Of a DNA stretch of 64,000 nucleotides, positions 59,308 through 60,606 are shown piece after piece. The notes under the pieces were generated by a model. That model made no database searches. It had not been told where the DNA came from and worked only from the letters and a program-made list of their open reading frames with translations. Both the position numbers and the translations under genes were made by a program. The stretch is from a virus. The stretch covers positions 1 to 64,000 of the IMG/VR virus record IMGVR_UViG_3300020468_000003, one strand, 5' to 3'. Position 1 is the first letter of the stretch, and each line of letters opens with the position of its first letter.

Positions 59308-59655
59308 CTCGTCGAGATGTGTGCCCCTGCTCATATGTGTGTATGATATGTGCAGGCTCGTCGAGATACATGTGCGCAAGCTCGTCTAGATGCATGCGTT
59401 CATGTGTGCGAGCTCGTCGAGATTATGCATAATGATAGATGGATAGCTCGTAGAAATCCTGATTGTTGTCTCGTCGAGAGTTATATTCCTCGTCGAGATC
59501 TAAGTCTTGTGTATAAGACTGTGTACTCTCGTCGAGATCGTCACCTGTTTCATAGTCGAGATCGTACCAGTCTGCGCAGTCTTCGTACATAGTCGAGATG
59601 AATAGAATACTTATAGTATAACACATATCTCGACTAGAGGCAAGCTCGTCGAGAT
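59308..59655. repeat. Array of CTCGTCGAGAT elements
   Basis: Six exact copies of CTCGTCGAGAT start at 59308, 59357, 59413, 59489, 59528 and 59645. Near copies lie at 59381 (CTCGTCTAGAT), 59447, 59470 (CTCGTCGAGAG), 59553 and 59590 (TAGTCGAGAT), and an inverted one at 59628. Weaker ones occur at 59228 and 59269. The core CTCG-T-CGAG is a dyad. Spacers are 8-39 nt and irregular, so this is not CRISPR. The spacers are rich in alternating TG/CA/CG steps. Confidence 0.9.
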
Positions 59656-59860
59656 TCACAGTAGTATATATGTACGCAAAAGGATCTATTGTTACAATAT
59701 AGTAACATTGTACTTATAAGACTACAAGTACTTCGCGACCCTGTGTGTTAGGAAATCGCGATCCGTGGGTTGACAAACTCCGCGTCTCATGCTACGCTCG
59801 CTAAGTCAACATAAGATCTGAGCATTAAATCATAATACTTTCTCTCTTCTTTATACACAT

Positions 59861-59889
59861 ATTATAACACACTTAACATCCTTTTGCAA
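59861..59889 (-). promoter_or_regulatory. Minus-strand promoter into the repeat region
   Basis: On the minus strand, TTGCAA (59884-59889), a 17-nt spacer and TATAAT (59861-59866). It shares its palindromic -35 hexamer with the plus-strand promoter and points to the repeat array and the terminator at 59027-59050. Confidence 0.7.
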
Positions 59890-59912
59890 TGTACTTGTAC
59901 TTATGGTATAAT
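59884..59912 (+). promoter_or_regulatory. Plus-strand promoter of the HNH module
   Basis: TTGCAA (59884-59889), a 17-nt spacer and TATAAT (59907-59912) point to the only plus-strand genes. The spacer is occupied by the direct repeat TGTACTTGTACTTAT, a likely operator. Confidence 0.72.
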
Positions 59913-60005
59913 TAAAAGAACCAGTTATTTAGACAGTTTACCAAAACCTATTCTCAATGTACTTGTACTTATAAATTAGTAATAAGTACATCCTATAAGT
60001 ACATT
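59887..60005. repeat. Operator-like ATGTACTTAT elements
   Basis: The 18-mer CAATGTACTTGTACTTAT occurs at 59887-59904 and 59955-59972. Inverted ATAAGTACAT copies lie at 59982-59991 and 59995-60004, and a further ATTGTACTTATAAG at 59707. They surround the divergent promoters and the start of the HNH module, which fits a regulator binding site cluster. Confidence 0.75.
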
Positions 60006-60007
60006 AT

Positions 60008-60091
60008 ATGAAAATTGATAGGTTCATCGGTAGAATCCCTTGGTATGACTGGAGTTTCGCCCTTAGTATGTGTCATGGTTTCTTGAAGTGA
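60008..60091 (+). CDS. Possible leader peptide of the HNH module, 27 aa
   Basis: A 27-codon frame starting MKIDRFIGRIPWYDWSFALS. Its TGA overlaps the GTG start of the endonuclease as GTGA, so it may couple translation. There is no clear ribosome site, and its short length leaves room for chance. It has two Trp residues and no other marked feature. Confidence 0.4.
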   Translation: MKIDRFIGRIPWYDWSFALSMCHGFLK

Positions 60092-60606
60092 GAAAGCATA
60101 AAGTTTTGAATGAAATAGAAGACTTAGAGGATTTCAGTGGTTACTCGATTGATACTGATGGAAACCTTTGGTCTCTGAAGTATAAAGTACCGAAGCTAAG
60201 AAAACCTGTATGGTCTGGTAAAGATGAATGTGCATATCTTACCTGTAGATTGAGAGATGATAATGGTAAAGCAAAGACTCTCTACATTCATAAGTTGGTA
60301 GCATTAGCATTTCTTCCGTGTGATGATCCTACCCGAAGGGTTGTGCATAAGAACAAAGATCGAAGTAACAACCAACTTGAAAACTTAGAGTGGATTGCTA
60401 ACGTAAAGGAGAAGAAGAAAGCATTAGACTTCGTATTACAGGAAGAACTGGTAAATAAGATACAGCGTATTCATGTAGTTGCTCAAAAGAAAGGAATTCG
60501 GGATGTGTCGTCTGATTCTTATTCATTTACCACGAAGATGATCGAAGATGCCATTGAAGCATACATTAAAGAGTATGGACTACGTAAAATTGATAGAGAC
60601 TTATGA
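60088..60606 (+). CDS. HNH endonuclease with NUMOD4-like domain
   Basis: A 172-aa protein if started at the GTG that overlaps the leader frame; another GTG lies at 60070. Residues ~14-30 (DFSGYSIDTDGNLWSLKYK) form a NUMOD4-like module. Residues ~65-106 (YIHKLVALAFLPCDDPTRRV, then VHKNKDRSNNQLENLEWI) are the HNH_3 nuclease with His, Asn and Asn at the usual places. The C-terminal 60 residues are helical and may bind DNA. Homing-type endonucleases of this kind are free-standing selfish genes in phages. It is on the opposite strand from everything around it. Confidence 0.85.
   Translation: MRKHKVLNEIEDLEDFSGYSIDTDGNLWSLKYKVPKLRKPVWSGKDECAYLTCRLRDDNGKAKTLYIHKLVALAFLPCDDPTRRVVHKNKDRSNNQLENLEWIANVKEKKKALDFVLQEELVNKIQRIHVVAQKKGIRDVSSDSYSFTTKMIEDAIEAYIKEYGLRKIDRDL

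Follow-up and report, generated by a model that had tools for sequence, protein, structure and literature searches.

A clustered dyad element in and around a small acidic gene of T4-type cyanophages, a candidate protein-binding control region

The window analysed here is a 64,000-nucleotide stretch of a 105,044-base viral record (IMG/VR IMGVR_UViG_3300020468_000003), a T4-type cyanophage fragment as judged by matches to S-SM2, P-SSM2 and others, and within it some 350 bp are occupied by a dense array of short dyad sequences. What is this array for? An earlier note on the sequence had proposed a selected array of operator or iteron type, which our analysis supports, and had also raised a partition or packaging locus, for which we found no evidence. 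T4-type cyanophages are common in lakes and seas, and their early gene control and replication starts are poorly known; the locus yields a precise, widespread cis element together with a new small gene family. In open-access full text we found no description of the dyad motif, nor of iterons in cyanophages.

Copies and distribution of the dyads

The array consists of the following parts.

59308 to 59655, no strand: dyad array, ATCTCGWCGAG(AT), with cores from 59308, 59357, 59381, 59413, 59470, 59489, 59528, 59629 and 59645
59447, 59552 and 59589: degenerate dyad copies within the array
59308 to 59423, minus strand: part of the array downstream of a small acidic gene, with dyads at 59413, 59381, 59357 and 59308

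There are six exact copies of the 11-mer CTCGTCGAGAT, starting at 59308, 59357, 59413, 59489, 59528 and 59645, all on the plus strand as written and just where the earlier note had placed them; the rest of the 105,044-base record contains none, and the reversed 11-mer, used as a control, has no match in it. The excess of near copies is equally real, with 22 matches at up to two mismatches in 64 kb against 6.9 expected, a number that none of 100 shuffles reaches, and the surplus sits at the array locus. All nine occurrences of the symmetric nine-base core CTMGWCKAG in the record fall inside 59308–59653; chance would provide about 1.6 in 104 kb and 0.005 in 350 bp. The nearly uniform orientation also claimed in the note is misleading: because the core itself is palindromic, orientation resides only in its central base and the flanking AT, and the copy at 59627–59637 has the opposite sense. 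Spacing within the window is irregular. Distances between dyads peak at 22–25, 30–33 and 39–43 bp, which fit the helical repeat roughly at best, and we set helical phasing aside as suggestive.

Related arrays are widespread. A scan of IMG/VR for two copies 10–40 bp apart returned at least 119 stretches, and a CTAG variant returned 57 (45 of them new), giving more than 160 stretches with paired sites against three for the reversed-motif control. Four or more sites within 400 bp are present at 105 of 119 viral loci among the matches listed. In 12 further records and in genome G011 (246 kb), with sizes of 49–246 kb, almost all of the dyads fall into one to three clusters located within some 10 kb, the exceptions being a match at 154 kb in S-SRM01 and a terminal duplicate in S-T4 (NC_048049, in which about 9.5 kb is present at both ends, 1–9.5 kb and 171.6–181 kb, probably through assembly of a permuted genome). 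In this sense the dyads are restricted to one locus per genome, and the array is found 5–12 kb upstream of the gp25–gp6 baseplate genes in each of S-T4, S-SRM01 and the window. Within these 10 kb or so, additional arrays follow stop codons or surround a hairpin. This conserved hairpin, GTGCCACT...AGTGGCAC, is flanked by dyads between two small genes (S-SRM01 88118–88200, and loci L025, L058 and L063). As the loci were retrieved by motif, co-occurrence counts are biased, with positions and codon statistics less affected; the sequences are related to one another, and redundancy was reduced by identity thresholds only.

The small acidic gene and its promoter

The region is not gene-free, as had been supposed: the minus strand codes for a small conserved acidic protein, with some of the dyads serving as DLDE codons.

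59423 to 59590, minus strand: small acidic gene (SAG), 55 aa, MYEDCADWYDLDYETGDDLDESTQSYTQDLDLDEEYNSRRDNNQDFYELSIYHYA, pI 4.05, with homologues and signs of purifying selection
59589 to 59599, minus strand: degenerate dyad ATCTCGACTAT overlapping the SAG start codon
59615 to 59643, minus strand: predicted SAG promoter, with −35 TTGCCT (59643–59638), a 17-bp spacer containing the dyad CTAGTCGAG, and an extended −10 with TATACT (59620–59615)
59645 to 59655, minus strand: upstream dyad directly 5′ of the SAG −35

S-SRM01, S-T4, S-SKS1 and P-SSM2 all have a SAG homologue, as do about 100 IMG/VR loci; the P-SSM2 copy is annotated as hypothetical protein PSSM2_098, and those in S-SRM01 and S-T4 are unannotated. 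The products are 42–65 aa long, with the consensus MYDDYDLDYTY..NDY.DLDE...DLDEDYARD..DY..LAYRHYA. When the DLDE words are left aside, 99.6% of 3081 pairs have a pN lower than pS (median pN 0.218, median pS 0.562), which indicates that SAG is under purifying selection and truly protein-coding. It matches no family in Pfam or PHROGs, and structure prediction gives weak helices and no confident fold (mean pLDDT 60, pTM 0.18). Loci L028, L046 and L065 carry a strongly diverged version, MYDWSYEYLVELPDADEHMRTNLDEIPARDVHNLDELARKPYE, with ten dyads around it. The gene behind SAG in most relatives is phrog_12516, a PHROGs family of unknown function. All 116 phrog_12516 loci, including lineages without SAG, have at least two dyads within 700 bp upstream; these loci were picked for carrying arrays, so that adjacency rather than presence is the finding.

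Several features indicate that selection acts on the dyads as DNA and not on the encoded peptide. First, the LDE triplets in SAG are spelled exactly CTCGACGAG in 126 of 146 cases (86%), whereas about 5% would be expected from codon usage elsewhere in the gene (CTC for 76 of 208 Leu, 37%; GAC for 277 of 807 Asp, 34%; GAG for 57 of 143 Glu, 40%). Second, dyad copies lie ahead of, inside and behind SAG with all reading frames represented, those upstream occupying three frames, and in the window SAG holds one out-of-frame copy (read as SRRD) besides the in-frame ones. Third, the dyads behind SAG are kept across the window, L013 and L066, and the spacers between them vary in sequence and length. 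Fourth, in lineages where SAG was not found (e.g. L078, L100, L054 and L165) the array is present as noncoding DNA upstream of phrog_12516. Finally, C/A and G/T substitutions in the half-sites are seen on one side alone, as DNA half-sites would show. The locus provides a clear example of DNA-level sites embedded in coding sequence through codon choice.

The SAG promoter, which reads TTGCCT-CTAGTCGAGATATGTGT-TATACT in the window, is by its sequence of sigma-70 type, and the dyad has a fixed place relative to its −35 and −10. A spacer dyad is present at 67 of 79 nonredundant loci, centred 11–14 bp before the −10 in a spacer of 17–18 bp; the −35 of these promoters begins TTG and the −10 is mostly TGn-TATAAT-like. 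P-SSM2 has the dyad likewise in the spacer (TTGACA-ATCTCGACTAGATCTGG-TATAAT), and promoters of the S-T4 type deviate in that the dyad is closer to the −35. At other loci a full dyad is centred 7–13 bp ahead of the SAG ATG. The S-SKS1 array has mostly single CGAGAT half-sites in place of dyads, one of them in the promoter spacer (TTGACA-TACGTGCGAGATGTCTG-TATAAT), and the half-site may therefore be the unit of recognition.

Promoter control and the origin question

The locus is shared by many related viruses and so is very probably a real protein-binding control region. The explanation that we favor, and consider rather likely, is that the array is a cluster of sites for a putative, probably dimeric DNA-binding protein that controls the SAG promoter. 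Such a protein would read the half-site ATCTCG and would be bound ahead of the −35, in the −35/−10 spacer, at the SAG start codon, inside the gene and behind it. Occupancy would control the promoter, most likely through repression or timing rather than activation, and in most relatives phrog_12516 would be controlled likewise. The arrays after stop codons and around the hairpin, however, are left unexplained by control of one promoter, and several dyads in the window lie 170–280 bp downstream of the SAG start codon, which is far for a simple operator. It also counts against this explanation that the dyad spacings match a helical repeat only loosely, and that S-SM2, Bellamy and S-SCSM1 keep the neighboring gene and the divergent promoter described below but have no dyads. 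Of the two observations that the earlier note would have taken as refutation, the first, an 11-mer equally common elsewhere, does not hold for the record, and the second, relatives that keep the region and lack the sites, is seen in these three phages. Isolated phages carry the element (P-SSM2, S-T4 and S-SRM01 the array with SAG, S-SKS1 the half-site version), so the binding protein and the question of an origin are directly testable.

Candidates for the binder were tried and rejected. The paired motif occurs in 99 bacterial or archaeal stretches (mean GC 0.65) with no cyanobacterium among the matches listed, and four or more sites within 400 bp are found in 8 of 80 such stretches compared with 105 of 119 viral loci, which speaks against a host regulator. 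An AbrB-like 58-aa gene is present in 62 cyanophage records, and is thus unspecific, and has no Pfam match; the small genes shared by S-SRM01, S-T4 and G011 are mostly core genes or antisense frames, none an obvious regulator.

The other side of the array has features of a different kind.

59770 to 59798, plus strand: divergent promoter-like sequence, TTGACA-17-TACGCT, with a weak −10 (3 of 6)
59709 to 60003, no strand: second repeat family, ATAAGTACA, accounting for every copy in the 105-kb record (five), within and close to the AT-rich stretch by the divergent promoter
59830 to 60030: AT-rich stretch, GC 0.27, with DnaA boxes at the corresponding place in other lineages
60070 to 60606, plus strand: HNH homing-endonuclease-like gene following the divergent promoter (HNH_3 match just under the Pfam cut-off), not considered part of the proposed mechanism

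Counterparts of the divergent promoter are present at 59 of 74 loci. In S-SKS1 (L301 919–1028) tandem 22-nt repeats, CTCTTATAAACCTTCTCTAATA, lie directly downstream of it, and S-CAM7 (NC_031927; L306 1096–1397) has an array of 13 CGCAG/CTGCG sites upstream of phrog_12516.

These surroundings suggest a second explanation, which we regard as possible and clearly less probable, namely that the dyads are the iterons of a phage replication origin: they would be bound by an initiator, the divergent transcript would prime replication or open the AT-rich stretch, and host DnaA or another factor would help in some lineages. Control of the SAG promoter would then be autoregulation, as at plasmid iterons. 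Clustering of repeats at a single locus per genome, flanked by a divergent promoter and an AT-rich stretch, fits such a role. So does the distribution of the cyanobacterial DnaA box, TTTTCCACA (PMC4674748), whose density in the 1.2 kb upstream of phrog_12516 is about 16 times that elsewhere (0.292 against 0.018 per kb), with 28 copies near the gene and 13 far from it, while 200 shuffled words give no more than 11 near. Perfect boxes occur at 12 of 88 nonredundant loci, co-oriented and spaced by 11–12 and about 20–28 bp, and in this minority of lineages they fall downstream of the divergent promoter. The DSL-LC03 genome has ten exact boxes, seven of them in a 460-bp segment that extends to either side of the divergent promoter (80123–80579, corresponding to L309 1624–2080); five of the seven take the position of the dyad array, and we consider this segment a candidate origin of that lake cyanophage. 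Two of the three boxes in S-SM2 are at this locus, boxes are present there in S-SCSM1 and S-SKS1 as well, and the S-CAM7 array, unrelated to the dyads, stands upstream of the same gene.

Nonetheless, DnaA boxes are absent from the locus in the window, S-SRM01, S-T4 and G011, no initiator gene was recognised there, and T4-type phages encode their own replication machinery. The earlier note had suggested an iteron-type origin and GC skew as a check; the origin-like neighborhood in related phages keeps that suggestion plausible, but no skew switch is seen at the locus in the window or in S-SRM01, a weak test given the several origins of T4-type phages and the dependence of skew on gene direction. 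In its broadest form, about which we are slightly more tentative still, the locus would be an undescribed T4-type cyanophage origin with a conserved divergent promoter, next to which lineages swap one recognition array for another (CGCAG repeats, DnaA boxes, ATCTCG dyads or half-sites), the array being built into the coding sequence of SAG, whose product may antagonise or assist the binder. Promoter control and an origin role may both be true: given the origin-like features of the region in relatives, the protein proposed to control SAG may also act in replication initiation, and the array is possibly part of a replication start site new for these viruses.

Known systems and the remaining readings

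The earlier note knew of no comparable array in T4-type phages. A review does report evenly spaced 12-nt iterons of undefined role at T4 oriE, which with repEA and repEB resembles the present locus in having repeats that neighbor small early genes, upstream of gene 6 (PMC3016281). In the T4 sequence, however, the repeats near oriE have an even 24-nt period and lie in frame within gene 5, whereas the window array is irregular, occupies several frames and is partly noncoding. We take the T4 repeats to code for the octapeptide repeats in the beta-helix of gp5; as in-frame gene 5 repeats, they are no model for this array. No resemblance between RepEA or RepEB and the SAG protein was apparent when compared by eye.

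The origin of phage lambda, with iterons inside gene O, is similar in having dyad-bearing repeats in coding sequence, an adjoining AT-rich stretch and transcription nearby; it differs in that SAG (42–65 aa) is no recognisable initiator, that the window copies are irregular and lie also in a promoter and outside the gene, and that the origin role here is putative. At the autoregulated iteron and operator regions of plasmids P1, pSC101 and R6K, sites for the initiator overlap a neighboring gene's promoter and bring about autorepression, whereas the window locus has no recognised initiator gene and its sites are dyads of 11–13 bp. Cyanobacterial oriC is matched by those relatives with clustered perfect TTTTCCACA boxes beside or replacing the array, unlike the window, S-SRM01 and S-T4.

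It seems very unlikely that the dyads are an RNA-level element, such as transcript hairpins or protein-binding words. The downstream part of the array does fold better than shuffles (z = −3.5), as inverted repeats would, but other segments fold little or no better, there is no Rfam match, one-sided substitutions that break pairing are common, and the predicted transcription start site comes only after the first two dyads. No more credible is the reading of the dyads as a by-product of DLDE repeats in SAG. The gene is truly coding and at most loci has about two in-frame copies of GATCTCGACGAG, which encodes DLDE, yet dyads also stand in every frame, between the −35 and −10, ahead of the start codon and beyond the stop codon, the codon bias is confined to LDE, and arrays exist without SAG; as a complete explanation it is refuted by the dyads outside the gene. 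A short REP-like repeat, selfish or spread by recombination, or a homing-endonuclease target, which the local clustering and the frequent nearby homing endonuclease genes might suggest, is just as improbable, as the promoter position is fixed over divergent lineages and the adjacent endonucleases differ in family (HNH, GIY-YIG) and place.
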